The translations under genes were made by a program, and so were the position numbers. From Ceratodon purpureus (taxonomy: Eukaryota; Streptophyta; Bryopsida; Pseudoditrichales; Ditrichaceae), in assembly GCA_014871385.1 (NCBI GenBank), contig CM026422.1, forward strand, positions 18,468,096 through 18,532,095: a stretch of DNA of 64,000 bases. The letters run 5' to 3'. Shown in pieces: positions 40,501-64,000 of this stretch; position 1 is the stretch's first letter, and each line of letters opens with the position of its first letter. Below the pieces are notes generated by a model. The model was not told where the DNA came from, did not search any database, and was given only the letters and a program-made list of their open reading frames with translations.

Positions 40501-41710
40501 ATTGCCACCAACAGACAACTGAGCATCATGCACCCCGTGCACAAAGCGCTCGTCACCCATTACAAGAACACAATGGATATCAACCAGTCTGCCCGAAAGG
40601 CACTCATCAACGCAGGCGGGATTGTAGAACAAACCTTCGCTCCACAGAAGTACACCATGGAAATCTCATCAAAGGTGTACGCAGGATGGCGCTTCGTCGA
40701 CCAAGCTCTGCCAAATGACTTAATCAAGAGGTAAAGAACAAAATTCAGACACGATCCAGAGAAAATTTCAATGCTCTCATGAACAATGCCACCATGCAGA
40801 GATGGGTTTAGGGTTTATGTGACTAACAACAAGCTCTGTGAGCAGAGGAATGGCGGTTCCAGATCCCACAGCTCCATATGGACTGAAGCTTGTGATTGAG
40901 GATTACCCATATGCAAAAGATGGTCTTGATCTCTGGGCAGCAATCCGCACATGGGTGAAGGAACACATCGACATCTTCTACGCTGACGACAAGGCGGTGC
41001 AAGGCGACGTCGAGCTGCAAAGCTGGTGGAGCGAAGCGCGAACTAAGGGTCACGCAGACATCACCGAGGGGTGGATCATGGCGGACTCTAAGGATAATTT
41101 GGTCCAAATCGTGACCACCATCGCATGGGTCGCTTCATGCCATCACGCTGCCGTGAACTTCGGCCAGTACCTCTACGCGGGGTTCATGCCGAACCATCCC
41201 TCCATGACGCGCAAGCTCATCCCCGAGGAGAACACCCCAGAGTGGGAGACCATGCAGCGAGAGCCTGAGAAGTTTCTCCTCTCCATGCTCTCGAATGCAG
41301 TCCAGTCCAGGGTTAACATGACCACGATTGAGATTCTCTCCACTCACGCAGCGAATGAGGAGTATCTCGGCCAACGCCCCGAGAATTGGACCGACAACCC
41401 AAAGGTGTGTTTCTTCCACTCTTCAAACTCCAGAGCATTTTTCCATCAACATGCTTAGATTCGTTCCAGAGAACAGACCTTGAATCGACTTAACTCTGAG
41501 TGAATTGATCTTGTCAATTGGCAGGTGTTGGCAGCGTTCGATAAGTTCGGGAAGAAGGTCGACGAGATTGACGCGCTCATCAAGTCAAGGAATGCGGATC
41601 CGTCACTGAAGCATCGAAATGGTCCGACGAAGGTGGCATATGAGCTTCTGCGACCGAAGTCTGGCGAAGGATTGACCAACAAAGGCGTTCCGAACAGCGT
41701 TTCTATCTAG
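37562..41710 (+). CDS. LOX: Lipoxygenase
   Basis: Nine exons: 37562-38425, 38673-38898, 39043-39375, 39573-39658, 39813-39890, 40037-40344, 40467-40730, 40846-41404 and 41525-41710. All phases agree, giving 967 residues. It dioxygenates polyunsaturated fatty acids to hydroperoxides (oxylipin pathway). An N-terminal PLAT-type lipid-binding region precedes the catalytic domain, which begins near the [13 protein letters not shown] and [11 protein letters not shown] blocks. All five non-haem iron ligands are present: H631 and H636 (SHWMRTHA), H820 and N824 ([10 protein letters not shown]) and the C-terminal I967 (GVPNSVSI). An in-frame ATG at 37538 would add eight residues; 37562 is preferred because the context fits better (AAGATGG). 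An extended N-terminus of about 40 residues could be a plastid signal, but this is unclear. Regiospecificity cannot be read by eye. Confidence 0.95.
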
Positions 41711-42732: not shown

Positions 42733-44716
42733 TCACAGATGCTCAGGGTTGTCATGGTGAGCTCTCTGCTCAAACTCGGCCTTCACTGGCAATTTATCTT
42801 CAGGAGCAACCACAGAGCTCTGGAGCTGGTCAGATGGGCTCATTGCCTTGAGGCTCGGGTATTTCTTATATCTATAGAAATGGGCAACAATGAGGAAGTA
42901 GACCACATTCAGGAAGCTCAGCACAGCCATGAGCCAGTAGAAGAGGTTCAGCTTCTTCCGGTTGAAGGGCAGGCTGTCGGAGAGCCACCCAGGCTGCGAC
43001 CCGGTGCTCGTGGCCTTGTTGACGATGTTCACAACGGCGGTGCTGATGAAGTAGCCCAATGAGATTGTGGTGAACGACAGGCCCGTGCTGGTGCTGCGCA
43101 TGCTGTCTGGAGCTTGGTCGTAGAAAAACTCCAGCACGCCGATGTAGGTGAACATGTCGGCGATCCCAAATGTGAAGTACTGCGGCACGAGCCAGAAGAT
43201 GCTCATGGGGATGGTGCCGCGCGGGTCGTCCAGGAGGCCATACTCTTTCGCCTTATTGGTGCGCTTCACCTCCACAAACGCTGCGATGATCATCGAAACG
43301 ACCGAGAGGACGAGGCCGATGCCGATTCGTTGGAGGAACGTGATGCCTCTGTCAAGGCCGGTGTAGCGGCGAGCGTAGGGGACGAAGACGCGGTCGTAGA
43401 GGGGCACCAAGATGGCCATGATGATGAGCGGGAAGAAGGGGATGGACGCGGCCGGGAATTTGAAGCTGCCCACGTTCCGCTCCATCGTCGCGCCTTGCTC
43501 GATCGTGAAGGTCTGCAGCTGCGCAAGCACGACATTCATGATGATGGTGCCCGCCCAGATGGGCATCAGCTTCACAATGGCCTTCGTCTCTTCGACTTGT
43601 GTCACGGTGCATAGCTCCCATTTGCTCGCCTCCGGCTGACGATCCTTCCTGTCGCCGTCCACTATCGCCGCTCTATCCAGAAATCTGCACTCAAATTTCA
43701 ATCAAGTCTGGCTTTCTCACTCTCGTTCTGTAATTAAGTGAAGGCTACATAAGCAGAAGAATAAACGGAGAATCTGGGCAACAAGGTAAGCCAGTCGACC
43801 ATGGCAGCACATTCGAGAGACGATACCTAAAGTAGTTTGTGTGGTCGATCTTTTGAAAACCTAGATGCGCAGCTTCTTTGTCATCCATCTCGAATAAGAA
43901 ATCCGGCGAGGGAGGGACTGGGCGATGCATCTTCCGAACCGCAGCTACAAACACTTGCAAAATTCTCGTCAAAGGGCTCCCTGACGGAAGCCTCTTTCTG
44001 AAACGACGGGTGCCAGCCAAGAAAACGGCCAACCCAGCTGCAACTAGGGCAAGACAGACGCCATAGCCCACTGCATTGCCGATGTTATCCTGAATGTACA
44101 CCAGCACGGTAACGCCAAGCAACCCCCCAGCCACAAAGCTGAAGAAGAACCAGTTGAAGTACACCGAGGAAAGACGGCGCTCTTTCAAATGTGTTTCATC
44201 GAACTGGTCTGCGCCAAGGCTGGACAAGCAAGGCTTGAGACCACCCGAGCCAAGCGCAATGAGGTAGAGTCCCACGTAGAGCACAGCCAGGTCGGAAGGC
44301 GTCGCGGATTCGCATGGGGGAGCAGCGCATTGTGGTGGTTGTAGTGATCCGATTGAAGCAGAAATTGTCATCAGCGACATGCCCTGCGAGACCAGTCCAA
44401 GCAATAGACTCGTCAAAAGGAAATTCTGGGTCGGAAAGAAGACTACACAAGAGATGATCTTAAAGCTTGATGGGGATTGTTTGGACACGGTTACGTACCA
44501 CGAGTTCAACGATTGCGAAGAAGATGATGGTGGAGAAGCGACCAAGATACGCATCGGCAATAAAACCTCCTAGAAGTGGGCAAAGAAACGCTGTGCCTGC
44601 GAAGTTCGTTACCGTGGTCGCGGCTTTCGTGGTGGCGAAGTTGAGATGGTTGATGAGGTACAGCACCAGGTCTATCTGCAGACCGATGAATGCCATGGTC
44701 TCTGCGAACTCGAAAA
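42733..44716 (-). CDS. NPF (NRT1/PTR, POT family) transporter, first exon unresolved
   Basis: Three confident exons: 44716-44499, 44383-43827 and 43684-42733, phase-consistent and giving about 575 residues. It is a proton-coupled major facilitator transporter (nitrate, peptides, hormones or other solutes). Diagnostic blocks are KAATTVTNFAGTAFL, LLGGFIADAYLGRF, the GSGGLKPCLSSLGADQFDE signature between helices 4 and 5, and the C-terminal half with FWLVPQYFTFGIADMFTYIG. The first exon starts in phase 1, so a short upstream coding exon is missing; a candidate ends at a GTAAGT donor near 45137 (peptide ending about PFTF). The usual E-x-x-E-R proton-coupling motif of helix 1 reads E-F-A-E-T, as also occurs in some NPF clades. 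Likely plasma membrane or tonoplast. Confidence 0.9.
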
Positions 44717-47700: not shown

Positions 47701-48381
47701 CTAAACACAAAAGTACTTCGTGACCCAAAACTGATCTGTAGACTTTCCCATTGTCACACCTAGCTGGTACTAATTTTCACTCATGTCGTGACCCAAAACC
47801 ACCAACTTTTTGAGTGCTCTGATTGGTTAGTTTGAATTAAGTGTTCTGACAATGCTACTGGCTACTAGTGGTGGTTCTGGGGAGACCTACAGGTTGGTGA
47901 TGGGGGCGGTGGTGGTTTTGGGGCATTCGACCTTAGCTCTGTCGGAGCTGGGACTTATCGTCTCTTCTTTAGAAATTAGAGGTGGTGGTAAGAGCATCCC
48001 CAGTCGACCCCTATGGGCATCCCCAGGACTTGTAAGCCCTTAAACCTCCATCCGGCTTCATCCGGGTTAGAGGCTTAAGGGTCCTCTGAGCTCCCAGTGC
48101 AGGAATGCTATCTTGTGAGCAGCGAGCAGGAGCAGCGAGCAGGGAGCACTGTTTTTTTTTTTCCAAATTTTTGGTTTTTTTCGAATTTTTTTCCAATTTT
48201 TTTCCGTCGCAAACTAATACAGTGTGTATTACCGCGGAATCTTTAAAGAATCTTTAGAGAATATTTAGGGAAATTATTATGAAGATTCCAAGAATATTCT
48301 TTTCAGAGAATTATATAAAAAGGGATATTTAGGTAATTCTGGACAAAAAAAAGTCCAGAATTCAAAAATGACCAATGCGAA
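44717..48381. other. Intergenic region
   Basis: About 3.7 kb with no confident gene. A possible first NPF exon lies near 45137-45170. A C-run of ten is at 45837-45846. A short MITE-like or hairpin segment is at 47992-48115. T-rich tracts lie near 48150-48205. The 17-bp palindromes begin at its right end. Confidence 0.5.
47992..48115. mobile_element. Possible short MITE with internal hairpin
   Basis: It begins TAA/GAGCATCCCCAGTCG, the same terminal type as the Tourist-like MITE at 15604. The right end near 48090-48115 (CTCCCAGTGCAGGAATGCTA) is only a loose inverted match. Inside, CCCTTAAACCTC and GAGGCTTAAGGG form a hairpin (11 of 12). It is probably a decayed element. Confidence 0.35.
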
Positions 48382-48606
48382 CTCAGCGGACCGCCGATGG
48401 ATGGAGACCACAGATGAACAGTGTCATTGTACATGAATACCACAGAATATGGAATGCAAAACTAGACATCGAGATGTGCATGGGCGGAATTTGCCAGTGA
48501 TGGATATATGAACCCGAAGATTGCGACATATAATGCAGAATAAGAGTTACAATGAATACTTTAAAAAATATCATGTTGATTCAAGTAATGAAATGTACAA
48601 TACAGA

Positions 48607-48623
48607 GTCGGCGACCCGCCGAT
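48607..48623. repeat. 17-bp palindrome copy, intergenic
   Basis: GTCGGCGACCCGCCGAT, one of the leftmost members of the family. It lies downstream of the NIF-like gene ending at 48910, as does the copy at 48827-48843. Confidence 0.85.
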
Positions 48624-48909
48624 AATAGAACCAGTAAACTAACTAGTCCCGTAGCACTTTGAGTCCTGAAGTCCTACAACATTAAGTCTACACCCAGCAC
48701 TATGTACCAAGTTCACGTAAATCCTATCACATTATAACCTACTCTGAAAACTATTTCCCTGAAAGCATAGCCGTAAGGTCAATGAGTAAATCATATATTT
48801 GAAGGCCGCACAAACGGGTCGACCAAGTCGGCGGGCAGCCGATGGAAGGTGTTCTGTTGGTCAGGAGGAGGGAAGAAGTGCAAATTGGAGGCGAAAAAGT
48901 CCGCCTAAC

Positions 48910-49587
48910 TCAGTCCCAGCAAACTTCAGTCCAGTCCACTCGTGCACGTCCAAACTTTCTCGCAGCTTCAATTGCCCAGTGCACTTGCCCCGGCCTACAC
49001 GCCTGCGCCATATACTCCGGTACAGATCCGAACTTGTGCAAGGGATAAACCAGAGGAAGGATATCTGTAGCAATGTTAGGTATAACGCCGTCATCGTTCG
49101 GAAAGTTTAGATGACCCTGAAAAGGCCAAGGAATGTAGCACATACAGTTTGGTGTCCTCCTCAATGACCTCGGGTCAACATCCACAAATAGCACCTGATC
49201 TAGTTTGCAGACGTTTCTAGACTGTACCTTGGAGCAAACTTGACCTAACGTCTTATAACTCCAGGGGAAATTCTCCCGGTCGATAAGGTCACTTCTGCTA
49301 TACACGAAGGACAACCTCTCCATTACACCGGCCGGCAGAATATGTGTGAGTAAAGGCTTCAGTTCTCCCAAGGGCATCTTCGACCACAGACCAACATGGA
49401 AATGCAAGAAAAGCATGTCGAAAAGCTTCTTCAAACCTGGGCGCTTTACTACATTCCGATGCGTATCCCATGGCAAAGCCTCTATCCTGGGATCCACATA
49501 GCAGAGAAGGCCATTGACGCATAGGACAATACATTTCTTGACATGATGAGGTGGACCGTGAAGGCATTTGAAATAAAACGAGGAACC
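48910..49587 (-). CDS. NIF/FCP1-like HAD protein, third copy, catalytically degenerate (5' exon unresolved)
   Basis: The exon opens after a strong acceptor (CATATTCTTCAG, exon from 49587) and encodes 225 residues to a stop at 48910. The HAD layout is recognisable: motif I region KKCIVLCVNGLLCY, RPGLKKLFDMLFLHFHVGLW for the helix and motif II strand, and DQVLFVDVDPRSL for motif III. The nucleophile Asp of motif I is Cys and the second Asp is Asn, so it should lack phosphatase activity. An upstream exon must supply the start codon; the region 49600-49800 has several splice-like signals but I could not settle it. It is third in a same-strand row with the genes at 49878 and 51233. Confidence 0.65.
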   Translation of the reverse strand, partial: GSSFYFKCLHGPPHHVKKCIVLCVNGLLCYVDPRIEALPWDTHRNVVKRPGLKKLFDMLFLHFHVGLWSKMPLGELKPLLTHILPAGVMERLSFVYSRSDLIDRENFPWSYKTLGQVCSKVQSRNVCKLDQVLFVDVDPRSLRRTPNCMCYIPWPFQGHLNFPNDDGVIPNIATDILPLVYPLHKFGSVPEYMAQACRPGQVHWAIEAARKFGRARVDWTEVCWD

Positions 49588-49877
49588 CTGAAGAATATGA
49601 AATGCAATCAGTGAAGGAAATCAAAGAACAGGACGAAGTATATGAAAGAAATGGACTACATTCAAAGTCGTCGATGCATTGAAGAAACCTCAAAGGTAAA
49701 TGTGCAGCAAGTGAAATGTCATGCACGCATCTACAAAAAGAAGTACCGAATTGCAGCACTGGAAACAATTGTGTGGTGCAGGGAAGTTCAGAAAGGGAAC
49801 AGTCTTAGCGTATTAAACTAAAGAGTGCAGAGTATCATATGTGATTTTTAAAACTAGTGGCGCCGATGATGTAGGCT

Positions 49878-50975
49878 CTAATCAGTCGGCTGCCCGCCGA
49901 CGATGGAACTACCAGGGGCCTCCGGAGGACAAGGTAAATTCACAAACCAAGATCCAGGATCACCCGGGACGTCGAACCCGCATGCATGAGAAGGAATAAC
50001 CTCCCTATACTTCTGGTATTCGCGAGATTCTGGAAAAAGACGTGGCTTCCCCACGCTAGAATTCCTCCTACAATACTCCTGGACATCCAATCCAGACTGC
50101 TTAAGTCCTGCAAGGAATGGTGTAACTACCCTAGTTAAATAGGGATTGGGGGTGGGTTGAGGTTCTTTGCACTCTGCAGAGTCCCAGAAAAAAGAATTAG
50201 GATGGACAGCGCTAAATGGATGATTAAGTACATTCCTATAAGGGCGGTCGTCTACCAGTAGGGTATTCTGGACAGTGGCACCTGATCGAGCCAGTAGCCT
50301 AGTGTCGCAGAAAAGTCTATCCAGACGCTTCAACAAGTACTCCCGTTTCCCATGCGGATTAGTCCTTGTTGAGATATCACACCAGAATCCTGGAAGGCGT
50401 CTGTAATTGCTCCTGAGCAAGGGATGAATGGCTAACAGCTTCTGGAAGTGACGATCGAGATTCTTTTCAGAAACCGTGGACCAAAAGACTACCTCGAAAT
50501 TCGCCGTGCAGAACTCTAGAAATGAAAGAAGTCCTGGTCTAGCCCGGATATGAATTTTTGTCTTCTGGTCATCACCGATATACCCGTGGTGCTCCGCGAT
50601 GAGCAATCCCTTAATGTCAAGGACAAGGTAGTATCGTTGGAGAGGTACCTCAATATTACGCGCAATAATATCAGTGCTGACACTGACGGAATCATCGCGC
50701 GGGGAACCGGTGCGCGGGATCGCGACGTTGGTCTCGACGAACGAGGTGGAAGCCATCGCACACCGGCCAGAGCTATGTGCAGCAGACAGCGTCGGCGGCC
50801 CGCCGACTGGATAGTCGTACTCGTCCTCCCCATCACTTTCATTCTCGGCTTCCGCTCCCGGAGACTCTTCTCTGAGAGCATCACCATCAGGAGATGTTGG
50901 GTACTCCTCCAAGAGCATACTAAGAAAGGAAGGTCCCTGGTGCACTTTAATTTCAGCGTCATCCTCCAGTGACTC
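49878..50975 (-). CDS. NIF/FCP1-like HAD protein, second copy (5' exon unresolved)
   Basis: The frame is open from 50993, but an acceptor-like tract (TCATTTTTCAG) just before 50975 suggests that the coding exon starts there and that an upstream exon holds the ATG. There are about 365 residues. An acidic, Ser-rich N-terminal third is followed by a HAD/NIF domain: motif I VLDIKGLL (first Asp kept, second Asp replaced by Lys), RPGLLSFLEFCTANFEVVFW, and motif III TLLVDDRPYRN. Two copies of the 17-bp palindrome lie in the coding sequence, both read Val-Gly-Gly-X-Pro-Thr: at 50791-50807 in the acidic region and at 49885-49901 as the last residues before the stop. The family acts on phospho-Ser of RNA polymerase II CTD and similar targets; this copy may not be active. 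Confidence 0.75.
   Translation of the reverse strand, partial: ESLEDDAEIKVHQGPSFLSMLLEEYPTSPDGDALREESPGAEAENESDGEDEYDYPVGGPPTLSAAHSSGRCAMASTSFVETNVAIPRTGSPRDDSVSVSTDIIARNIEVPLQRYYLVLDIKGLLIAEHHGYIGDDQKTKIHIRARPGLLSFLEFCTANFEVVFWSTVSEKNLDRHFQKLLAIHPLLRSNYRRLPGFWCDISTRTNPHGKREYLLKRLDRLFCDTRLLARSGATVQNTLLVDDRPYRNVLNHPFSAVHPNSFFWDSAECKEPQPTPNPYLTRVVTPFLAGLKQSGLDVQEYCRRNSSVGKPRLFPESREYQKYREVIPSHACGFDVPGDPGSWFVNLPCPPEAPGSSIVGGQPTD
49885..49901. repeat. 17-bp palindrome copy, in frame at a protein C-terminus
   Basis: It encodes Val-Gly-Gly-Gln-Pro-Thr and then Asp-stop of the second NIF-like protein. Confidence 0.9.
50791..50807. repeat. 17-bp palindrome copy, in frame in coding sequence
   Basis: Perfect dyad form (GTCGGCGG-C-CCGCCGAC). 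It is read Val-Gly-Gly-Pro-Pro-Thr inside the acidic N-terminal region of the second NIF-like protein. Confidence 0.9.
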
Positions 50976-51175
50976 CTGAAAAATGAAGGACAAATTCCAA
51001 GAAAATTCCGGTGATCAATCGCATGCTCACAATTCATACTTGCTCTAGTGTACAAATGGAGACACAATAAGACACCCACGACAGAATACACAGTCTTGAC
51101 ACTGAGTTCCGTTCTCATATATTTAAAAGGAGGAAAACTTTATTTACTGTAAAAGTCTAAATACATGAAGATCCC

Positions 51176-51192
51176 ATCGGCTGTCAGCCGAC
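51176..51192. repeat. 17-bp palindrome copy between two NIF-like genes
   Basis: ATCGGCTGTCAGCCGAC, just downstream of the stop of the first NIF-like gene (51233). Confidence 0.9.
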
Positions 51193-51232
51193 TGAATCAT
51201 GTGCATGCTCTCTAAAACAGTTTCTACATCTA

Positions 51233-52033
51233 CTATGTTCTCTTTCGTTTAGGGCAATCAATGTGTGGAGAGAAGACACTATAAGCTTCATCCCCCGGAA
51301 AAAGACGACGCTGACCGAATTCGGAATGTTTCTGGCAGTACTCGGGCACGGGGAGTTTGGATTCTTTCAAACTGGTAAGCCAAGGAATCAATTCTCCAAG
51401 CAGATAATTCCTCTTACTTTCGGACTCCTTCGACTCGAAGGTATATGGTGTAGGGTGCACAGCGTTCCAAGGAGTGTTTGCCACATTCTTATAAGGGGAA
51501 TCATCAACCAAGAGAGTGTTAATTGAAGACGCCCCCGTCCCCTTCAGCCCGTCATCGAGGTCAAAGAGGGTCTGGAGTCTCTTCAAATAAAACTCCCTAC
51601 TAGCCTTATGTACGCAAGTCTCGCAGAAACTCTGGTCGAACTTGTAGCGCACTTCGGCATCTAGACGAGGACAGCGCTGCTGCAACGCTTTCCACAGAAT
51701 CTGAAACCTCTTTTCCTGAACGCAGCTCCAGAAGACCACCTCGAAATTGTCCAGGCAGAACTCTAGGAACCTCTCTAAACCCGGTCTAAGCTTAGTATTC
51801 CACCTAGTACCCTGCTTCGTCTGGACTAATAGCAGGCCGTTAATATCCAGAACAAGAAAGTACTTCAGCACTGGATCGTGTACCTGAGTACCAGCCTGTT
51901 CCGGGGCTATGTGAAGTGGATTCAGAGGTGGAGGTCCCTGCTCCAGAACTGCACTGGGTCTATCTTCGTGAAGTTTTCCATGGACTTCCTTGTCCGCGGA
52001 CTCTGGAGTGACAGAAAACGAAGCAGAGGACAA
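51233..52033 (-). CDS. NIF/FCP1-like HAD protein, first copy
   Basis: A complete single-exon ORF of 266 residues with its own ATG. Residues 1-55 are a low-complexity leader. Residues 58-250 are a HAD/NIF domain: motif I VLDINGLL with the nucleophile Asp at D63 kept but the second Asp replaced by Asn (N65); LRPGLERFLEFCLDNFEVVFW (82-102) with S103 as the motif II residue; and motif III TLLVDDSPYKN with D177 and D178. The tail CPKRKRT is basic. It is the best preserved of three tandem copies. Loss of the DxD acid/base residue leaves activity uncertain, though plant proteins of this group often read D-x-N-G-L-L (recollection, not checked). Likely nuclear, on the phospho-protein side of transcription. 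Confidence 0.8.
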   Translation of the reverse strand: MSSASFSVTPESADKEVHGKLHEDRPSAVLEQGPPPLNPLHIAPEQAGTQVHDPVLKYFLVLDINGLLLVQTKQGTRWNTKLRPGLERFLEFCLDNFEVVFWSCVQEKRFQILWKALQQRCPRLDAEVRYKFDQSFCETCVHKASREFYLKRLQTLFDLDDGLKGTGASSINTLLVDDSPYKNVANTPWNAVHPTPYTFESKESESKRNYLLGELIPWLTSLKESKLPVPEYCQKHSEFGQRRLFPGDEAYSVFSPHIDCPKRKRT

Positions 52034-52053
52034 ACGTGACGGTTAGGATGACG

Positions 52054-52070
52054 GTCGGCGGACAGCCGAC
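52054..52070. repeat. 17-bp palindrome copy between ParB-like and NIF-like genes
   Basis: GTCGGCGGACAGCCGAC, 21 bp upstream of the first NIF-like start codon and 165 bp downstream of the ParB-like gene's stop. Confidence 0.9.
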
Positions 52071-52234
52071 TTGCAAGCAACATTATTTGAAAAAAGGGAA
52101 AGCGTACAACTTGGCATTTACCGAAAATTTATTCATACTTGGCAGTACAAACATCTAACACAATCCTAGAGCCCGATCACTACACTAAATTATCAATGCA
52201 GGCATTTAAAAGATGGACTGGGCCACCGCCTGAT

Positions 52235-55200
52235 TCACTGACCTCCACCTTTGTGCTTCTTCGGCCTAGGCTCCCGTTTGGATGGCCGCACAGGTGACAG
52301 AACGTCCTGTGGAGCGTCCACATTTTTGGGACTCATGTGCTCTTCCCCAGATGTGCCCTTCTTGGAGGAAGTCTTCTTCGAAGCAGCCTTCCGTTTGCCC
52401 TTCCCAGAGGACTCCTCCCCTTCCTGAACCCCTGAGGAATCACGGGATAAGTTACCCACAAGAGAGGAATCCTGCGTAGTACCATCGGTCTTACTTCTCT
52501 TCATTGATCGTGTATACACCAGAGGGTTCTCATCCGGGCCAATCATCCGAGTTGCGCCCTTCACACCTTGCGTGACGAATGCGATTGACTTCCCTGTCAA
52601 CTTGGTCTTGGCAGAGGGGTTAGATGAGGTTTGCTCGTCTGCCGTCGGCTGCCCGCCGACGGCAGCAGGAGGAACATGCCCTTCAATGCTCACTGCAGGC
52701 TCTTGGGTTGGCTTCTGGACACGGCGAACCACTTCATCGTCAGGCCTCGATGCTAGAGGAACCTGCATATTCTTTGGACGCCCCGCCTGGTCTAAATCAC
52801 GTTCTGGCTCGGCGGGAGGAGTCCCCTGCTCTTGAAATGTAGGAGAAATAACACCGAAGCTCAGGGAGTCAGTTCCGGTCTCCCGTAGAACTTGCGACAG
52901 CGGTGGGTTCACGTAACGAGGATTCGATTCTTCCAGTGGTAATTCGTCGGGTTCTGGTTCATAGTCTAAGTCCTCCGTGTCTTGCTCCTCTACCTCTGCA
53001 TCTCCACTTGGAATGCGAGCCTCAGCTTGGTCGTCCTCGTTTCTTGGCTGTTCCTCAGCATCTCCTGCTTCATCTTCAACGTCTGGGTCGGGTACATCTG
53101 GTGGCTCCTCGTCGACATCGTCGTCGGAGTCCAGAAAACTCTGTGAGCGAACCCCCGCAGTCTTCGCCGAACCCATACATCCACCCTTCCCGACCAAATG
53201 GGCCTCCTCCGCATTCACACCCAAGTCGGCAGCCGTGAGAGAGCCAGCCCTGCCTCTAGCAGAGGCGGGGACAGACGGCCCGGCCCCAGACTGCGTGGTC
53301 TGAACTGGAGCTTGGACGGGCACGTTATAGACGCCAGGAATGAACGTCATATTCCGAACCCGACAGTGCGCTTCGTATCTCTCTTCCTCGGTACGCACGA
53401 TCTCAATTACAGTCAAATGGTTTTTCTGCAGCAGAACAAGACGAAACGGTTAAGGACATCTTCTGCCCAAGAAACACGAAGGATTCAATCAGCGTCGGCT
53501 GCCAGCCGACGATCGGTGAGCAAACAGCGAAGGCACCAGAAGAGACTGCAGTAACTTACCAGAGCGAGGGCCGTGACGTTCCCCCCTCCCCAGCAATTGA
53601 TCACCCGAACGTCCTCAATCTGCATCGCTTTCTCCAGAAGAGATTGGAGGAAAGAGAAACTAGCGTGGCAGTGACCATTTGACCAATCCTCCCCAAGATG
53701 ATCTTCTCCTTCATCTACATAGGGAGGAAGCGGACGTTTCAAACCAGTGAAGTCTGAGAAGGTATTCCATGCATCCCCGGGCGTTGTTCTTGGATACATA
53801 ACGGACACATGAACCTTGGGTCTAGAGTCAATGAGAGAACTCCTTTGAAACCCGGCGGAACTATCAGGGAAGTAGTGCATAGTATGAACCGTCCACGAAT
53901 TAGTAGAAAGCCTTGACACGCCTTGAAGAGTGTGATTACACTCAGCATCGAGTAGCCACAAGGATGGGGTGACAAGCTTATTCACCTTAATTGTATCTAC
54001 CTCCCCATCCAGAATGACCTCCTCCTCCACCTCACGGTGAATCCTGTCAGCGACAGTTATAACGTGTTGTTGTCGCATGTTAGGCATCTCCTTTCCCGCT
54101 GGATCGTAGCCAAAGACCACGAACATCTCATACTGCGCCTTGTTGAAGGAGAATGCTCCGCGAACGTCAAGAGCTGTGCACACTTCACCCAGGTCCTCTG
54201 CAATCCGAACATCGAACTGTAGAGACGACTGCGAAGACTGGTCCACATCCGACTTACAGTATTTTTGCACAATGTCTTTGAAGAATTCTGGAGTTGGCCC
54301 TTGCAACGGCGTGAGCGGATGATTCCGTCCCTTAAGCCACTCCTTCCCCTCAGGACTATCTTCCAAGTCAGCCCGAATATTACTAACCATTGTATCATTG
54401 AACCCCTTCTCGACTTCAAGGGAATTCCAGTCATCCATGGTCCACTCAATCTGCTTCCCAGTCCCTGGTTTCCTCAGTGCAAAGCCCCTGTAAATACACA
54501 TGAGCTCGTTCCGGACAATATACTCGAATTTCACACGCTTACACCAATTCTCCACTGATGTTCCATCCCGTTGAACCACCTCTTTCCCAGTGACCTTGAC
54601 GTACACTTTAAGGTCCAGAATTTCCTTGGCCAGCCTCTTGCATTCGTGGTCCCGAAGACCGATCACGTACTGCATGTCGTTGAATGTTATGTCCCGGCGG
54701 GCTGGCTTTGGGGGAAATCCTGGTTTCAGACCGTCCTCCCCGATGATCCTCCCCTCCTCCCAGGCGTCGAACACCAGTTGCCACTCGTTGTATGTTTCAT
54801 CAGAAACGAAGACTAAGGGCAGCTTCAAGGTTTGGGACGTAGGGGTCTTTCCGAGAATCGGACTGAGGTACTCCTTGCAGAACTCCTGCAAGGAAGAAAA
54901 AAATGACATTGATAAAAAAATCCCACTTCGGCAATACGGAGAACCACTTGAGCGTCGGCTGTCCGCCGACGACTTTCAACTACTTCGAAACAACAGGAAA
55001 AGAGGAAGATGTGAATTACCTTCCATGCGCTGTAGTCATCTTTCTTGTCGATCCTCCCCCGCTCGATCCATTTGGCGCGCATCTTCGCCAGCTGGGACCT
55101 GAAACTTACTTCGGCGACTTTATCCTTCACCTCGATGTTTAATGCGTTAGAGACCTTTATGAGGGTATCCTTGTCATCAGAATATACAGGGATGATATCG

Positions 55201-57028
55201 TGGTTAAGGTAATACTGCCGCATAGGCGAGTCCAGTGGTTCCTTCTCTCCCAGTTCTCGACAAGCCTCAAACGTGTGCTGGCCCCCAATTATGTACCAGT
55301 GGATGCCCTCATCTTCATACCAAGGTACCTCCTTCTGTGTGCCGTCATCCTGTCTAAGTGAATACTTGATATTTAGGCCCATCCAAGGTCGAAGAAGTCC
55401 TTCCAAGCCTTTAAGCTTAACAATCTCGCCCGTCACTGGATCCTTTACTCTGGGGTCACCACTCATAGGAAGGCAGTACAGCTCGGGCTTCTTCCGGATT
55501 GCTCCAAGTCCTTTGTAGAAAAGACTTATCTGATCCTGCCTCTTCCTGAATATCGCTCTGTACTTGAATTCGTCGGGAGCTATGTGTATCCTGTTATATG
55601 GAATCTGACAAGGAAGGGCACGTTGCCCGTTGGGGAAGCAGTGCCCAAGTCCCTCCTCCAACGTCTGGTACATGGCAAGGACGTCGGTGTCCTTTGTTTT
55701 GGAAGTGAGATTGTTTGCGAGCATGAGAGCTTCCGCCACGGTCTGCTTCTTCTCTTCCTTCTTCCCACCTTTCTTCTTCGCACCCTCGCCCTCAGCAGCC
55801 GCTGCCTTTCCCTTCTTCCTTCTCGATGACTCCCCTGTCGTCTGTGTCTCTCCGGTCTCGGGGGTGACTGTACCAGTGCCCGCTTCTACAGCAGACTTGC
55901 GGCCGCCTCTTTTCTTTGCTGCAGGCTTAACCAAGTTCTTCGTCCTCTCTACCATCACTTTGTCCCCGAGCGAATCAATCACGTCGAGTATCTGATCAAC
56001 AGCTATGCTCTCACCCCTGCCCCAAGTAGCCGCATCCTGTACTTCTTTAGAGCACAAGTCGTCCATGCACTTCTCAACCGGAATTTCAACCGCGAAGCAG
56101 TCCACTGGTTGACCCTCCGCGACAGGAACCGATGCAAACACCAAGAACACGTAGCCTTCGTCATCGTCGCATTCCCTGGAACCAATAATCTCAAATCTTG
56201 GTCCACCTGCCATTTGCTTCTGACCTATTTTGGCCACGAAGCCCAGCGACATGGGAGTGTCACGCCAGGTGATGCCCCACTCCGTTATCCTCGAATCAGC
56301 GAGGAATGTCACCCTCGGTTTCAAGCCCCGTGCGAGTATTTCTACTTTAGGATCAACAACCTTGTCACAGAGCCAACGTAACCCATTCGGTTTTGCGGTG
56401 GAGGCGACCTTCGCCCTGCAAAATTAGAATCACAAGATTAGACCATCAGATTTTCACTCCATCGGCGGACAGCCGACGGGGGGAATAACCCATGTGAGAA
56501 AATAGAAAAATGAAGGACTCAGAAAGGGGTGGCGTCGGCGGTCAGCCGACGGAGGAACAACCCATGCGCCAGAACACAGAACATGAAGGGCAAACGAAGG
56601 GGTCACGGCGTCGGCGGACAGCCGACGGGAGGGACAAACTCATGCGAGAAAATAGAAACACGAAGGACAAAAGCAGGGGTGGCGTCGGCGGACAGCCGAC
56701 GGGAGGAACAAACTCATGCGAGAAAACAGAAACACGAAGGACAAAAGAAGGGGTGGCGTCGGCGGACAGCCGACGGGAGGGACAAACCCAGGCGAGAAAT
56801 TGAAAACTTGAAGGACTCAAGAAGGGGTGGCGTCGGCGGACAGCCGACGGGAGGGACAAACCCAGGCGAGAAATTGAAAACTTGAAGGACTCAAGAAGGG
56901 GTGGCGTCGGCGGACAGCCGACGGGAGGGACAAACCCAGGCGAGAAATTGAAAACTTGAAGGACTTAAGAAGGGGTGGCGTCGGCGGACAGCCGACTGGA
57001 CAACTTACCCACTCTCGGAGGCTGCCAT
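52235..57028 (-). CDS. Large ParB/sulfiredoxin-like protein, 1310 residues, four exons
   Basis: Exons 57028-57009, 56415-55020, 54885-53560 and 53425-52235; all phases agree, giving 1310 residues starting MAASESG. Residues 38-160 form an N-terminal globular region and 168-230 is Lys-rich. Residues about 275-470 look like the ParB/Srx fold: an NRIHI strand, then HWYIIGGQHTFEACREL (380-396), matching the GxxR/H-type G-G-Q-H-x-x-x-A motif, then DIIPVY. Residues 473-914 are a large unassigned region ending INCWGGGNVTALAL, which faintly recalls a SAM-binding glycine loop. Residues 915-1310 are acidic, then Lys-rich, probably disordered and nuclear. The palindrome is read in frame at residue 1170 (VGGQPT). 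All three introns contain the palindrome. Function is unknown; a DNA-binding or DNA-modifying role is inference. Confidence 0.8.
52644..52660. repeat. 17-bp palindrome copy, in frame in coding sequence
   Basis: It encodes Val-Gly-Gly-Gln-Pro-Thr (residues 1170-1175) of the ParB-like protein. Confidence 0.9.
53426..53559 (-). other. Intron 3 of ParB-like gene, 134 bp, carrying one palindrome
   Basis: GTAAGT donor and CTGCTGCAG acceptor. The palindrome (53494-53510) lies 49 nt after the donor end and 68 nt before the acceptor end, the same geometry as intron 2. The rest of the two introns does not look alike. Confidence 0.85.
54886..55019 (-). other. Intron 2 of ParB-like gene, 134 bp, carrying one palindrome
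   Basis: GTAATT donor and TTCCTTGCAG acceptor. The palindrome is at 54954-54970, with 49 nt on its donor side and 68 nt on its acceptor side. Confidence 0.85.
56416..57008 (-). other. Intron 1 of ParB-like gene, 593 bp, filled by a palindrome array
   Basis: GTAAGT donor and TTTTGCAG acceptor. Only 12 nt precede the first palindrome and 45 nt follow the last, so an intron with one palindrome would be 74 bp, equal to the array period. Confidence 0.85.
56461..56996. repeat. 74-bp tandem array, eight palindrome copies
   Basis: Palindromes start at 56461, 56534, 56610, 56684, 56758, 56832, 56906 and 56980 (spacings 73, 76, then 74 five times). Each unit is the palindrome plus a 57-bp spacer (with GGGACAAACC.. 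and ..GAAGGGGTGGC ends). The three copies nearest 56980 have almost identical spacers; the copies nearer 56461 diverge, so the array seems to have grown at the donor side of the intron. Confidence 0.95.
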
Positions 57029-58037
57029 GTCGTCGGCGGATGGCCTTTCACCGTCGGCGGATGATCCACGAACAGCAGCCGACGCGCGCAGGCGAAGGAG
57101 CCGACGCCCTCAACCCTAGCAGCCGACGCAGAAAAACCTAGCAGCCGACGCGACCTCTGCGGAGCGCTGAGAAGAGGACAAAAGAGAGCTGAGAAAGAGA
57201 AGGCTGGAAATGAGGAGGAAATGTCGGGGGTGGCGGGTGTATACCCTGCAGACCCCCACCTCCCGAGACTGAATCGTCACGCCCGATGGGTCATGACGTA
57301 TGGCTATGTACATACCATCCATGCATGGATGGTCATCCCTAACATCCGTCCCATCACGCCACGTAGGATGATGATGGGACGTCTTTAGACTTTTTTTCAA
57401 TCCGTCACCCAGTCATGATGGCCTGCGCATGTGATATGACAGCTGCTCCAATCGCCACGTTCAAATTCGTAATAATGAACCAACATTGTTCTGTGACGGC
57501 GGGGGCATCTCGCCGCCATGATGGGATCTTGATCTGTCCAAGGCGCGCAAAATTGAATTCGATTCTGGCGCCAATTTGTACTCCTGGGAATTCATAACTA
57601 ACCCCCCGTCAGATGCGCATACTTCATTCTATTTCTGTCATTGCACTTTCGATTCCCTCTGAGAGTGCTCCTGACGCACACGTTTCCTGAGAGGACCGTT
57701 TTTATTCCCGCATGTGCTTAACTGTCCCGCACCTTCTGTTGCCGTTTCTGTTCTCTTCGTCTATCGTTTCTAATTGGACGGTTGAGAGGAGTCTCTGATT
57801 GGACAGGTTAGGGACATCATACTGCTTCTCGACTCAGGTCCCCTGCAATTTCTGTCGGCGGACGTGTCCGTCATCGTCGGCGGATGCTATTTCTGTGCAC
57901 ACTCCGAGTCGTAGGATCCGCGTCGGCTGCCCGCCGAGTCGTCTTCGTTGTCGGCGGATACATTTTACTCCGTCGGCGGGGACACTTCCCGTCGACCCTG
58001 TCGGCTGTCCGCCGACGAGGTCTTCATCTCTTATCCA
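57029..58037. promoter_or_regulatory. Divergent promoter between ParB-like and DUF7869-like genes
   Basis: About 1.0 kb separates the two start codons. Both 5' leaders carry half sites or full sites of the palindrome: GTCGGCGGATG at 57032 and 57053 and several CAGCCGAC/GCCGACG half sites to 57150 on the left; half sites at 57854, 57876, 57950 and 57972 and full sites at 57922 and 58000 on the right. The middle (57.2-57.8 kb) lacks them. A telo-box-like AACCCTAG is near 57113. This arrangement suggests shared control of the two genes, possibly by a protein that binds the sites. Confidence 0.6.
57922..58016. repeat. Two full palindrome copies in the DUF7869-like 5' leader
   Basis: Sites at 57922-57938 and 58000-58016. 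The open frame runs through them in phases other than the Val-Gly phase used inside proteins, which supports placing the start codon after them, at 58038. Confidence 0.85.
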
Positions 58038-61000
58038 ATGGAAGTAGAGCCGATCCAGACGTTTCTAAGGAATGGCCGATCAGGGCGGTGGAAGGTTAAA
58101 AAGGGCGTTGTCGTGGCCCTTACTCATTCTGGGCTCTATTATGCAGGCAGGGCAGTGATCCAACGTGTTGTAGAATTTGATCCAATAGTGGTGGTGGTAA
58201 AAGTGATTGAGGTTTCAGACAGCATGGAAATGAATATACCATTTCCGGATGAGGGTGCGAAGTCCTTGAGCAACTGCTTAGGACAAATGATATTGTGGGA
58301 GGCGGCTGACCTCAGGCCTTTCGGAGAGGTGGAAGACGATGACATCAAGGCCGTCGGCTGCCCGCCGACGGATGTTGAAGACGATGTCAAGCCCGTTCAA
58401 GAATTCCTGGACCTCGCAGAGCAGATGGAAGTTGCGCTCCTCGAGGAATCCGGAGGCTCAAAGCGTTGTGTTGCCGCTGGAGTCATTATGGAGTGCTCTC
58501 CTAAAGGAACGTGGGAGGGGTTCTTGATTCCTCACAGCTTCTTTCTAATAGTGAGAGTGTCGTCCGTCAATCCAGAATTCTCTGAAACACCTGCTTTCTG
58601 CGAGTTACCGGATGTGTTAACGATCGGGTGTGCTGTGGGGCGATTGGTACTTTGGAGTGGATACAAGGTCTGTCCACTTGTGAACGGCGCGTTGGCTGGC
58701 ACATGTCCCGTCGGCTGCCCGCCGACGGAGCCTCACTTGGGGAACGAAGATGAAGAAATTGATGAAAGCAACTCCGCTCCGTCTGAGCAGGATCCGGGGA
58801 CTAGGTCTCCAATGAATATCAGCAGTGACGACGATGTGTCTAATCAAGGGGAATCCGACGTAGAAACAGATGATCATTGTTGGGGTCCGGATTCCGGGAC
58901 CTCGGGTATTCCTTCCACTCCCGATGCTTCTTATCCTGACCGCCACCTCTGGAGAAATCGGTATGTCGAACTTCTTAATGATGATCTATCAGTCCGTGGT
59001 AGAGCAATGATTCAAGTATGTTTACCGGACGAGGCATGTGATGATGAAGTCCTAGGGGATACAGAGGTTGGGGTTCTCTTCGTCTCTGAAGACGATCATC
59101 TGCAGATGACAACTCTCAGATGGCGTCTGACTCACGCTCGGTTAGAAGGGGGTCACCTCCTCTCTGATATAATTACTTACTGCTCCGAGAATTTAGCAGA
59201 CGCCGACGCGGACGATGGTCTGGATGGTGTCCCGAAGAATGCCTATCGATCGGTGCGGAGGAAAGTCCGCGAAAAAGATGACGTCTCTTCCACTAAGCTT
59301 CGTCGAATGGTTGTCCCTGCTGAATGCCGCTTAGTGAGCTCAAAGCGCTGTTGCAAGGACCGATGTTGCCAGACTTTTAGATGGGAAGATACTGTGAGTA
59401 TTCGGCGTAAATTTTACGCAACAACATTCCAGTCGAGGCGAGAGATGTCCTTCGCTGTGCAAGGGCACTTACATACTGTACCCGGCAAGCGGAAGCTCTA
59501 TGTTACTCTTGCGAACGTTGACGTATGTGAAGTGGCGTGGTATATCATTCACGGAGTATCGAAATCCGCGTACTACAGCTACAAGGCTGCGGCCCGAAGT
59601 GGTCGTGTCAGTGGGAGTCACGGAAATTCCGGTGTACATCGCCCCCAGATTCACACAATCCAGGCCCGCGCGACGTTGACCACTATCGTTAATGAGAATG
59701 CCGACCAAATGCCCAATGAGTTTCGGATGATTGGCAAGAAGAGAGTGGCCGCGCTCAAAGTACTCCCGTCTGCGATGAACTGGAACCACATGCGCGAAAT
59801 GGCCAACGCCGTAAGTTCCTCCTCATCTTCTTTCACTTTGGATAGTTTACTGAATTGTAGTGATTACTATCGTCGGCTGCCCGCCGACTGGATGACGAAC
59901 TTCCCAACTGATCGACCTCACTGTGTGCTATTCAGGTCAATGAGCAGTGCAACGCGAAGCTGATTTCGCAGTCCTCCGTTAGTCGCATGAGGAAGGAGTA
60001 CTTCCGCAACGTTGAGGTCAAGGCCGTAGGAAGTAATTTCTCCAAGTGCACTGAGTGTGACTTCCTCGTTGAACTCATTGCCAAGTATCCTAGAGGGTCG
60101 GACGAGTGGCAGAGCTTGACAGAGGATAGGACCAGGCATTTGAACTATCAGCGAGCTTGTCGCAACATTTATTACGGATGGACAACCCAATCTATACAGA
60201 GTCCTACTGAGTTCCTATGCATCATACATGATAAGATGGACACATCGAAAACAGCGATCCCCCGCATGCAACGTATCACGAAGGCTACGGCAGGGCTTGG
60301 TCAAATTCCGATTTCCTGTACTGGAATGCTGACTCACGGTCACGGAGATGGCGCCTACGCACACTATGCAACTGCCCTGTGGCCAGGAGACCCAAATTTC
60401 ACAATCTCCTCGTTGTGCAGGGTATTCCGTGCCTTGGAGAGAGTACCTGTCCGGGAAGTCAAAAGCACTCTTCGAGGCACCGCCACAGAATGAATTCTTT
60501 GCAGCGCTAATGCATGGATCGTCACGTTGCATCCCCTCAATTCCACCTTCTAGAGATGAGCCACTCACTCCACCTCTGCCTGGTAGGCCTGCTGTTCCTT
60601 TGCCGAAGAAGTTGTATCTGCAGCTTGACAATTCTGCGAAGGACAACAAGAACCGGTTTCTCCTAGCATTCTGCTCGTTGCTGACGGCGAGGCGAATATT
60701 CAAGGAAGTTACAGTTGGTTTCCTGATTGTGGGACACACACATGAGGACATCGACGCCCACTTCAGTCACCTATCGAAACTCATTAAGCGTAAGAACACA
60801 TACTGCCTTGCAGACCTTATGAAGGCATTCATGGATTCTCAGAAGACAGTTGCCTTTATTCCAGAGGTTGTTCAGGAAGTGGCAGACTTCAAAAGTTATG
60901 TTGCTGATTTTCATCACGACGGAGGTAATGCGATAGAAGGTCACAGTGAAATGCATCTTTTTAAGTTCTATGTGGTGGAGGATGGGGAGGATGCGGGGTG

Positions 61001-61949
61001 GCCCGTAATGAGGTACAAGAAGCGTGCAACTGATCCGTCATGGCTTCCACCTGGCAAACCCGTGAAAATGTGGAGGGCAGACAAAGAGGGTAAACCACGT
61101 TTGCCCGTCGGTGATCCCAAACCGGTTCCTCATAAGCACTTATGGGGTAGTGTTGAAGTCGATGAGGGCAAGAAGAACGCGGATAAAGAGGTGGCAAGGG
61201 CAGCGGAGTGTTCAGAGAAGAGAAATTTCATTAAAAGTGGATTATCTAAGTACATTGAGTACTGGAGAACTGGCATGGCTCGGGATAAGAAATACGCACA
61301 AGACATGTTACCATATGTACTGTATTGGGAACGAATTTTAAAGGAGGTCAACGAGCCACTGCCCCCCAATTCCGCCACCTTACAGGAAGGATTCTGGCCT
61401 ATCTCAGACTGGAAGCGGGACCACGTCACCACATTCGATGCACAGGACGAATATATACCGGATCCGGATATACGTCCCGGTGACGAGGATGAGGTGGAGC
61501 CCTATCCTTTCTGTGGTCCGAAAAACTCTAGGCCGAAGTCTGTGTTTAACCCATATCGTGACGTTTTACGTGGCGATTGGGTTTTCTGTCGTCCGTGTAA
61601 GGAAGACCACCTACCCATTTGGATGGGTAGGGCGATAGAGCCTGTTATTACAGAGCCTGGTCCTAATTACGGTAAGTTCAAGGTTGAATGGTGGACTCCG
61701 ATGAAGGGCAAGAAGGAAGGTAAGAAGAAGGTTGCGAGAGAGTGCTGGACAAGACGGTGGGAAAGGGAGTTGACTCTTGCGGAGTGGGTGGAGTGTAAAT
61801 CCGTTGTATACACTCATAGGACCAAGAAAACTACGCATGAGGGGCCCCCAAAGTCCCATCTAATACCCGAAGATGTTGTGATTGCTGCCATGGCAAACTT
61901 CGAATCGCATGGAATCTCGATGAACTGGAATGACGAGGAGGAAGACTAG
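58038..61949 (+). CDS. DUF7869-like protein, possible transposase-related (RNase H-like)
   Basis: Exon 1 is 58038-59810, exon 2 starts at 59936, and the last exon ends at 61949. Exons 1 and 2 join in phase. Between about 60428 and 60505 the frame shifts; a 76-bp intron (C/GTGCC to TTCTTTGCAG, 60429-60504) would repair it, but a frameshift is possible. Total is about 1236 residues. Exon 1 has an acidic middle and ends with a Cys cluster (RCCKDRCC, near 59350) and a helical region. The last exon has the conserved core: LYLQLDNSAKDNKNRF (near 60615-60660) and VGHTHEDIDAHFSHL (near 60730-60770), acidic residues that recall DDE/RNase H nucleases. The C-terminus has a small SH3/BAH-like stretch (GDWVFCRP, FKVEWWTPM). 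I recall this pattern from DUF7869 proteins of unknown role. Two palindromes are read as VGCPPT (residues 106 and 225). Confidence 0.75.
58353..58369. repeat. 17-bp palindrome copy, in frame in coding sequence
   Basis: It encodes Val-Gly-Cys-Pro-Pro-Thr at residues 106-111 of the DUF7869-like protein. Confidence 0.9.
58710..58726. repeat. 17-bp palindrome copy, in frame in coding sequence
   Basis: It encodes Val-Gly-Cys-Pro-Pro-Thr at residues 225-230 of the DUF7869-like protein. Confidence 0.9.
59811..59935 (+). other. Intron 1 of DUF7869-like gene, 125 bp, carrying one palindrome
   Basis: GTAAGT donor and TGCTATTCAG acceptor. The palindrome is at 59872-59888, 61 nt after the donor end and 47 nt before the acceptor end. 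Confidence 0.85.
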
Positions 61950-61965
61950 TCGGCTGCCCGCCGAC
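61949..61965. repeat. 17-bp palindrome copy overlapping a stop codon
   Basis: The first base of the palindrome is the G of the TAG stop of the DUF7869-like gene. Further copies follow in the 3' region at 62156-62172 and 62271-62287. Confidence 0.9.
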
Positions 61966-62863
61966 GATTGTGATCTTAGCTCTAGAAGATGTAGGTAGTG
62001 ATGGTTTCCTCTGTAAACGTTATAGTTGAATATTGTAAACACTGTGATTCCCTCGAATAAGAATTGTATTCTACCATTGACCCAATACTAGTCATGTATT
62101 ACACTTTGTCTTCTATTTGTGGTTCTGATACCTTACTTTTCCTTCTTCGGTGGTCGTCGGCTGTCCGCCGATGCCTCTAACCATGTTAGATAAGCATCAT
62201 GATCGGTGACTTTGTGAGGCTGGTCTATATTGTAGGGCCTGTGATTTTTACGGTGGACACTGTTACTCTAGTCGGCTGCCCGCCGACGCTTTCCACAACA
62301 TTGGTAGAAACCACTATGCGCTTTGAGAAACTGGGAAAAAATATTTATCCATTTCATTATATTCTTATCGGAGTACAACGGTAGTGTTCCGCCCTTTACA
62401 TGTTACTTTGTATTGTGTATACATCAGAGATGCCACTACTCCTAAAGCCTCAGTAACAAATACTAACCATGAATTCTACAACTATCCGAGTGTGTGAAGC
62501 AGCTCTATTGAAAACGAGCTGGACAGTTCTAACACACAGTAATTCACCCTAAAGCCAAAAAACCAACAAGCTGCAGATGGTCGCCAACGCCATGAAGCGA
62601 TCAGTCCTTCGAAGTAGACTTGGCTCGGACACACTACACCCAGTATCGACGGATGGATGCACGGATCCAAACGACGAATACGTGGACTGCGGGCTTGCGT
62701 TCCCATCCGCACCACTGATCTTGGCCAGAGCACCGACTTCCAGCACCCTCCAAGTTGTCGTATGCTTCGCCAACAATGCGGAGCCACCCTGCCGTTGACA
62801 TGGTCTGCGTTGACACCCTCCCCTGTGTGGCTGAAGTGAATGCTGCCAACACTCTCGGACTCC
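61966..62863. other. 3' region of the DUF7869-like gene, no confident gene
   Basis: It holds palindromes at 62156 and 62271. The latter lies in a 61-codon plus-strand frame (62199-62384), where it is again read Val-Gly-Cys-Pro-Pro-Thr. Whether this frame is expressed cannot be told. Confidence 0.5.
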
Positions 62864-63124
62864 TCAGACTCCTCGGACTCCTCGAATGTCATCGGGGAAG
62901 GCGATGCCGGAAGCGTCAGCGATCTCCATCAACTCTATGGTGTGAGCAATACTCCAAAACCACACCGCACCTGGCTGCAGAAGGCGTGTGATGTATCTGA
63001 ACGGAGGAATCGCTGTGTTGCGAGAACGGGCGACCACCGCCCTATACCATGGCCAGAGCTCCTCGAGGTCAGCCGGTGACTCCTGATAACCTAGTGGTCT
63101 CACATTGCTACCACGCCTCACCAT
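62864..63124 (-). CDS. Possible small ORF or exon, unknown function
   Basis: A frame of 86 codons with protein-like composition, including Trp-rich and ordered segments (LEELWPWYRAVVARS, PGAVWFWSIAHTIELMEIA). It ends where an overlapping frame with a Glu/Ser run (EESEESEESE) begins, so an exon junction or a frameshift near 62880 is possible. No family is recognised. It sits inside the palindrome-bearing region and could be a further gene of that element. Confidence 0.25.
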   Translation of the reverse strand: MVRRGSNVRPLGYQESPADLEELWPWYRAVVARSRNTAIPPFRYITRLLQPGAVWFWSIAHTIELMEIADASGIAFPDDIRGVRGV

Positions 63125-63305
63125 AACGACAAAATATTGGACAATATGCGACTAACTTCTACAGTATGCGACCTGCTTCTACAGTATTCGACCTTCTTCT
63201 ACAGTGGACAGCCGACGAGTTCGTCTAGTAAACTGGTAAACGTTCTAGTAATCCACTTCTCTAGGGTTTTTCTGGACGACTAATTGCCAACGTCGACCTA
63301 GTCTA

Positions 63306-63560
63306 GTAGCCACTACTCCCCTACTCGGCTGGTAGCCGACTAGGACTAGCCTACTCATCATTTGCATTATTAGGACTAGGACTTATTTACTCATCAGTAG
63401 GACTAGTAGCCCCTACTCTCCTACTTCGGCTGGTAGCCGACTAGGACTAGCTTACTCATCATTTGCATCATTAGGACTAGGACTTATTTACTCATCATTA
63501 GGACTAGTAGCCCCTACTCTCCTACTCGGCTGGTAGCCGACTAGGACTAGGTTACTCATC
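63306..63560. repeat. Tandem array of about 100 bp, three units, each with a palindrome variant
   Basis: Units start near 63306, 63409 and 63508; the palindrome variants (C)TCGGCTGGTAGCCGAC are at 63324, 63425 and 63525 (spacings 101 and 100). The spacers are rich in ACTAGGACTAG and TACTCATCAT. This spacer is unrelated to that of the 74-bp array, so arrays formed around the palindrome at least twice. Confidence 0.9.
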
Positions 63561-63890
63561 ATTTTTATCACGAGGACTAGGACTTATTTCCTCATCATCT
63601 TTATATGTATTTCAGATTCCAGAGGTCGGTTCAGTGAGGAAGAGGTTGGCTCTCCTAGTCGGCGGCCAGCCGACTACAAAGGACTTCCATTTGTTGTGAC
63701 CGTGAATACTGTTCATTCTAAACGACGACTCCGGAGTCCTCACAGACGGACACCCCAATGTGAGATTCTGGCAGTCGTGTCCACTCAGCGGGTCGCCGAC
63801 GATCTTTCCCTTCACCACCCGCTTCACTTCACACAGATCCACATTTGCAGAGCAAGTATTTCCTTTATTAGAACAGATAGATTTCTAAGG
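63561..63890. other. Palindrome-bearing region at right edge
   Basis: A palindrome at 63658-63674 lies in a minus-strand frame of 76 codons (63842-63612) and is read Val-Gly-Trp-Pro-Pro-Thr. A degenerate copy near 63784-63800 is read in the same phase of the same frame. Expression of that frame is unproven. Confidence 0.4.
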
Positions 63891-63946
63891 ATAGGGTTTC
63901 TAGGGTTTAGGGTTTCTAGGGTTTAGGGTTTCTAGGGTTTAGGGTT
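63891..63946. repeat. Interstitial telomere-type repeat (TTTAGGG and TTTCTAGGG)
   Basis: Alternating TAGGGTTTAGGG and TTTCTAGGG units, about seven GGG-containing repeats over 56 bp. TTTAGGG is the plant telomere repeat. The stretch is short, degenerate and followed by non-telomeric DNA with a palindrome variant at 63951, so it is not a chromosome end. Confidence 0.85.
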
Positions 63947-64000
63947 CTCAGTCAGCCACTCGCCGAGAGATTCGGCCATGACTGTGGGACTGGGATGTCC

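Follow-up and report, generated by a model that had tools for sequence, protein, structure and literature searches.

Does the right-hand part of the 64,000-nucleotide stretch of contig CM026422.1 analysed here (the window) belong to a mobile element that carries dispersed recognition sites of its own? The question is posed by a 17-bp near-palindrome whose copies accumulate in the last 15.6 kb, and by the genes found among them: one with a ParB-like motif (gene A), one of the DUF7869 family (gene E), and three of the NIF/HAD type (NIF1, NIF2, and NIF3). What is directly seen comprises the sites and where they fall, the reduced variation of the site within an array, the composition of the block, and its gene content. 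The reading favored here, plausible in our judgment if somewhat short of even likelihood, is that the block belongs to a giant DNA transposon of a plant, in which a self-encoded protein, most likely the product of gene A, would target the 17-bp sites, mark the element, and act against its silencing.

48382..64000, no strand: candidate element block, from site distribution and composition; left edge at about 48.4-48.8 kb, right edge beyond the window
48607..63967, no strand: 17-bp near-palindromes, 31 copies with at most two arm mismatches, from pattern matches and base counts

A Dispersed 17-bp Site

The exact consensus GTCGGCKGNCMGCCGAC has 20 matches, all within 49885-63674, and none in 100 dinucleotide shuffles. 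When the arms are sought as GTCGGC-N5-GCCGAC with up to two mismatches, 31 copies are found at 48607-63951 and a single one in the first 48.3 kb, at 537, where the center is unlike the site consensus. The original prediction had counted about 31 copies in the last 15.6 kb, a figure reached at this tolerance and not by the exact copies, and its statement that the first 48.3 kb held none is true of exact matches, the ill-fitting match at 537 being the one occurrence at mismatch level. Arm spacings of 3, 4, 6, or 7 instead of 5 give seven matches, of which the first 48.3 kb contains five. A weight matrix, partly circular in that it was trained on 22 of the block's own sites, finds 31 matches at or beyond 48382, against a mean of 0.25 in 20 Markov sequences, and one weak match earlier. 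Even spread of the 17-mer through the host genome, the outcome named beforehand as speaking against an element, is excluded for the 48.3-kb flank only.

Read in orientation, the site has the consensus (A/C)GTCGGCTGYCCGCCGAC(G/T), with conservation ending 1 base beyond the 17-mer, and it is present in both orientations. Its symmetry is imperfect, a GTCGGCTG half being joined to a GTCGGCGG half in 16 of the 23 classifiable collapsed sites (p = 0.047). The 31 sites are not independent, and array copies were removed for the base counts (7 copies, leaving 24 sites) and for the coding test described below (8 copies, leaving 23).

A near-palindrome of this kind might instead form an RNA hairpin, or might be a small dispersed repeat spreading by itself. 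All 20 exact copies could indeed form a 6-bp stem, yet when 32 sites are compared, those of the array among them, none of the 15 changed cells out of 192 is compensated, the conservation stops just outside the 17-mer, and half-sites stand alone at 22-bp spacing. The arm changes are one-sided and uncompensated, a pattern more in keeping with a target in double-stranded DNA than with a hairpin in RNA. The hairpin was rejected for want of any compensated change, and the explanation as a whole, self-spreading repeat included, is very improbable. An Rfam scan gave no matches, and a tRNA scan found none. Viral relatives were also considered and set aside: the exact site occurs in 54 viral stretches, one site apiece (two stretches share a contig, and several seem to be of the same phage type), and these were taken as unrelated. 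Near the most degenerate sites, telomere-like TAGGGTTT repeats occupy 63892-63946 (TAGGGTTTCTAGGGTT repeated 3.4 times) and resemble interstitial plant telomere repeats.

Site Placement, Arrays, and Half-Sites

The position of the sites can be judged against the following genes and repeats, for which the gene models are approximate.

48910..49497, minus strand: NIF3, NIF/HAD, the most degenerate of the three; PF03031 E 1.8e-5; frame extends upstream to about 49600
49878..50993, minus strand: NIF1, NIF/HAD; PF03031 E 1.2e-9; one site just ahead of the stop, one within the coding sequence
51233..52033, minus strand: NIF2, NIF/HAD; PF03031 E 2.7e-13
52235..57028, minus strand: gene A, about 1310 amino acids with a basic tail; exons 57009-57028, 55020-56415, 53560-54885, and 52235-53425, the joins being our own model; ParB-like motif IIGGQHTFEACREL
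56461..56996, no strand: 74-bp unit repeated about 7.3 times as an array, one site per unit, inside gene A intron 1, from repeat analysis
57032..57149, no strand: half-sites preceding gene A, of which four follow one another at exactly 22 bp, from half-site matches
57854..58016, no strand: half-sites and two full sites preceding gene E, from half-site matches
58038..61949, plus strand: gene E, DUF7869; PF25273 E 1.5e-42 for a query of manually joined exons in which an X stands for the frame break; exon 1 58038-59810, exon 2 from 59936
59811..59935, plus strand: gene E intron 1, modelled, with one site at 59872
63303..63598, no strand: 101-bp unit present three times, every copy bearing a variant site (center TGGTA), from repeat and site matches

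Coding sequence makes up 65.6% of the block and holds only 5 of the 31 sites (p = 2e-8), or 5 of 23 when the eight array copies are dropped (p = 2e-5), the site that touches the gene E stop codon at 61949 being scored as non-coding. All four modelled introns carry a site; a possible fifth intron of 62 bases and the gap between NIF1 and NIF3 have none. Palindromes do lie within or beside every gene, as had been claimed at the outset, that empty gap notwithstanding. The five coding copies are all translated in one common frame, as VG[GC][QP]PT.

The site or half-site is the basis of three arrays (74-bp, 101-bp, and 22-bp half-site), of which the one with 74-bp units is the longest in the block. 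Across seven of its units, variable cells number 2 of 119 within the site against 51 of 427 outside it (p = 3e-4), and by column 15 of 17 positions are invariant in the site against 32 of 61 outside (p = 0.010), figures that overstate independence in that the units are related by duplication. Lone half-sites repeat at 22 bp beside the starts of both gene A and gene E, which are divergently transcribed from opposite strands (minus and plus, respectively). Start-to-start spacings, full sites included, are 22, 22, 22, and 21 bp on the gene A side and 22, 46, 28, 22, and 28 bp on the gene E side.

The sites are read as targets of a DNA-binding protein because they are rare in coding sequence, occupy introns, vary little within the array, and show no compensating arm changes. 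Such a protein could be the transposase itself, the sites then serving synapsis and excision in the manner of the En/Spm subterminal motifs with TnpA, and having no anti-silencing role. A transposase-like gene is present in gene E, and the sites are repeated and occur in both orientations. They extend, however, over 15.6 kb, falling in introns, between genes, and in coding sequence, and are not clustered at an end (the right end lying outside the window), and the longest array sits in gene A intron 1. Transposase binding of this kind is an unlikely account of the sites; a protein that marks the whole element is the reading pursued below.

Gene A and the ParB-Like Motif

The candidate for such a protein is gene A. 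Against a profile of 43 ParB sequences (from 90) it reaches a local score of 25.6, which none of 150 shuffles and none of 150 unrelated open reading frames attain. With a profile made from the ParB portion of ParB-methyltransferase fusions of phages (32 sequences kept of 85) the score is 24.7, again equaled by none of 150 controls of either kind. Profile comparison pairs YIIGGQHTFEACRELGEKE of gene A with ParB box II. The C-terminal part of the protein contains what may be an eroded methyltransferase motif I (VINCWGGGNVTALALKNHLTVIEI). In a first methyltransferase test the score was 21.9, a level reached by 5 of 150 shuffles and by 3 of 150 open reading frames (8/300); a post hoc test restricted to the tail was matched by 9 of 300 open reading frames and 5 of 300 shuffles (14/600).

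The original prediction had called this product ParB/Srx-like; the likeness lies in one motif, which scores above all controls, and Pfam, NCBIfam, and PHROGs give no ParB match. Searches with gene A by tblastn of phages and genome contigs gave no relatives, such single-protein scans reaching close relatives only, and the best match among solved structures had an E of 0.78. A match between L055 and gene A, confined to the stretch around WYEDEGIH, was set aside.

Gene E and the NIF/HAD Genes

Above cut-off, Pfam recognized NIF and DUF7869 only in the five gene models, and in this the family assignments first made for gene E and for the three NIF-like HAD genes are upheld. Motifs judged by eye suggest that gene E is transposase-like. 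Its reading frame changes near 60443, where a short intron and a frameshift are not separable because 47 GT-AG pairs could bridge the change. No relative of its DUF7869 was found among solved structures (PDB), and two parts of the gene compared with viral contigs gave none either, again within the reach of single-protein scans, which is limited to close relatives. A duplicated module carrying the sites at 58353 and 58710 was considered and rejected as not significant (10% of 300 shuffles equal it). To the right of gene E, a coding-like fragment lies on the minus strand at 62540-63120; its 80-amino-acid piece has no Pfam match.

The three NIF genes are diverged paralogues, with 37% identity between NIF1 and NIF2 and 21% between NIF3 and NIF2. 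Active members of the NIF family carry a DxDx(T/V) motif. Here motif I reads VLDIKGLL, VLDINGLL, and, in NIF3, VLCVNGLL, and this departure makes phosphatase activity of the three gene products doubtful. Among solved structures the best match of NIF2 was TIM50 (E 0.56).

Edges, Composition, and Flank

The first degenerate site recognized by the weight matrix lies at 48382, copies of the arm pattern continue to 63951, and a third-order Markov comparison places a change point at 48814. Held-out 1-kb pieces of the flank score negative in 21 of 22 cases; among those of the block, pieces from 52.4-56.4 kb are positive and pieces from 48.4-52.4 kb are near zero, so that the left edge is soft. Dinucleotide ratios of the block and the whole flank are 0.82 and 1.03 for GpC (single flank pieces also being low, with 0.85 at 24-28 kb), 1.08 and 1.19 for TpG, and 1.02 and 1.20 for CpA. 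A short inverted repeat, ATTCTGGAC-A8-GTCCAGAAT, was read by eye at 48337-48361, immediately left of the first site.

The first 48 kb contain plant-type genes, namely a lipoxygenase, a POT/PTR2 transporter, a protein kinase, and a core-2/I-branching enzyme, from which a plant host is deduced, the lipoxygenase being a main sign. The lipoxygenase gene is in pieces at 37538-41458, with a sub-cut-off PLAT-like N-terminal part and two strong lipoxygenase segments. The transporter gene, on the minus strand at 42733-44560, lies a few kb left of the block, and a single reading frame at 4474-6411 has two protein-kinase-like stretches.

Within such a genome the block could also have no present mobility and be a cluster of domesticated or host genes under the joint control of a host factor. 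GCCGAC, the core of the DRE element to which plant AP2/ERF proteins bind, is included in each half-site; the two divergent starts both have sites nearby, and the long reading frames are mostly open. Against this, sites are found inside introns and coding sequence, and the composition of the block is unlike that of most of the flank. We consider a host cluster quite improbable and return to the transposon.

Proposed Mechanism and Its Weighing

The block would represent the left and central portions of a giant DNA transposon of a plant; gene E would be the likely transposase, and gene A and the NIF/HAD genes would be accessory genes. The 17-bp site would be the DNA target of an element-encoded protein, most likely that of gene A, in which the ParB-like motif is reminiscent of the ParB-methyltransferase accessory proteins found in giant transposons of algae. 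By binding at its sites, whether in introns, leaders, array repeats, or the gaps between genes, this protein may mark the whole element, much as VANC does; the marking could keep host silencing off the element and set transcription from the divergent promoter of genes A and E. Mobility, the transposase role, the identity of the binder, and the anti-silencing outcome are what we infer here from sequence.

Several results weigh against this proposal, beyond the shared descent of the array units. In Pfam no part of gene A gave anything above cut-off, and hence no DNA-binding domain; NCBIfam and PHROGs likewise gave no ParB match. The ParB likeness is a single motif of about 18 residues, the global alignment score being only 7.6, and the hhalign probabilities are low (15.6% with the 43-sequence profile and 8.8% with the fusion profile). 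In the second ParB test the best controls, at 22.5 and 24.0, come close behind 24.7. Single-sequence structure prediction gave the ParB-like part a predicted local distance difference test (pLDDT) value of 32.5, too low for the model to be of use. A methyltransferase in gene A is unproven, the similarity being marginal in two tests and absent in the one made with the fusion profile, in which 81 of 150 and 63 of 150 controls did as well (144/300). Even spacing of sites along the block is unsupported, their spacing being no more regular than random (P = 0.33). CpG, with sites masked, is 0.78 in the block, higher than over the flank as a whole (0.68) and no higher than in the 8 kb closest to the block (0.81-0.82); with the nearest flank as high as the block, CpG is uninformative on methylation and was rejected as a sign of its loss. 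Terminal repeats were not found within the window, outside which the right end lies. The self-contained element with its own recognition sites envisaged in the original prediction is in sum partly supported: site distribution, array variation, composition, and gene set fit a foreign-looking block of this kind, whose mobility is putative.

Comparison with Known Systems

In bacterial ParB-parS a near-palindrome of similar length is likewise present in many copies beside a ParB gene, here a ParB-like one. The block differs in that GGQHTFEA of gene A replaces the GERRFRA of Spo0J-type sequences (GeRR in the profile), so that a GERR-type box II was not encountered, and in that no ParA-like partner was recognized in the Pfam scan, which covered the five gene models of a window cut on the right. 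The TnpA motifs of En/Spm are repeated and subterminal. The repeated target motif is shared, whereas the sites described here run through the whole block. TnpA, itself an element-encoded protein linked to demethylation, is named in PMC10398659.

A closer parallel in layout is VANDAL21 of Arabidopsis. VANC21 is described as binding a nine-base motif in introns and in intergenic and terminal non-coding parts of VANDAL21, VANC targets as often forming tandem repeats, and methylation as being lost along the element (PMC5735166, PMC10398659). A short motif enriched in non-coding parts (here 5 of 31 sites are coding) and its occurrence in tandem repeats (here the 74-bp and 101-bp arrays and the 22-bp half-site array) are common to both; the motif there is YAGTATTAY, and the proteins are not alike. 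Neither a VANC protein nor a VANA-type (Mutator-like) transposase nor any Mutator-type domain was found in the Pfam scan of the five gene models, the presence of a VANC model in Pfam being unchecked and the right part lying outside the window. To our knowledge few transposons encode a protein that reads a dispersed motif by which the element marks itself; the clearest case known to us is that of Arabidopsis VANC.

In gene content the nearest counterpart is the Ectocarpus Sola1 transposon (Sola1-1_Ec32), 21.5 kb long, in which a gene with ParB-like and DNA methyltransferase parts lies on the strand opposite the transposase; for the ParB-type accessory proteins that giant transposons of algae encode, binding and modification of the element itself have been proposed (PMC12477816). 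The portion of that article available names no target site, and "palindrom" is absent from its main text. That transposon and the present block both exceed 15 kb, carry accessory genes or candidates for them, and place one, ParB-like there and with a ParB-like motif here, on the strand opposite a transposase or transposase-like gene. The block differs in having a plant host, judged by gene content, a transposase-like gene of the DUF7869 type, three NIF/HAD genes, a dispersed candidate site, and a methyltransferase part that is unproven. Literature searches, DUF7869 included, returned no report of this element in the parts of the sources available.

A more far-reaching proposal, possible and rather unlikely, is that this is a land-plant giant transposon whose ParB-derived protein reads its own 17-bp sites, including those inside proteins, and so gives the element a self-specific chromatin or modification state; the site would then be the missing target of the ParB-type accessory proteins. 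With a concrete 17-bp candidate, the suggested self-binding of such proteins becomes directly testable, and as the site bears a CpG, methylation dependence of binding can be asked. Algal giant transposons with ParB-methyltransferase genes have already been published, and what is new here by comparison is the dispersed candidate site.

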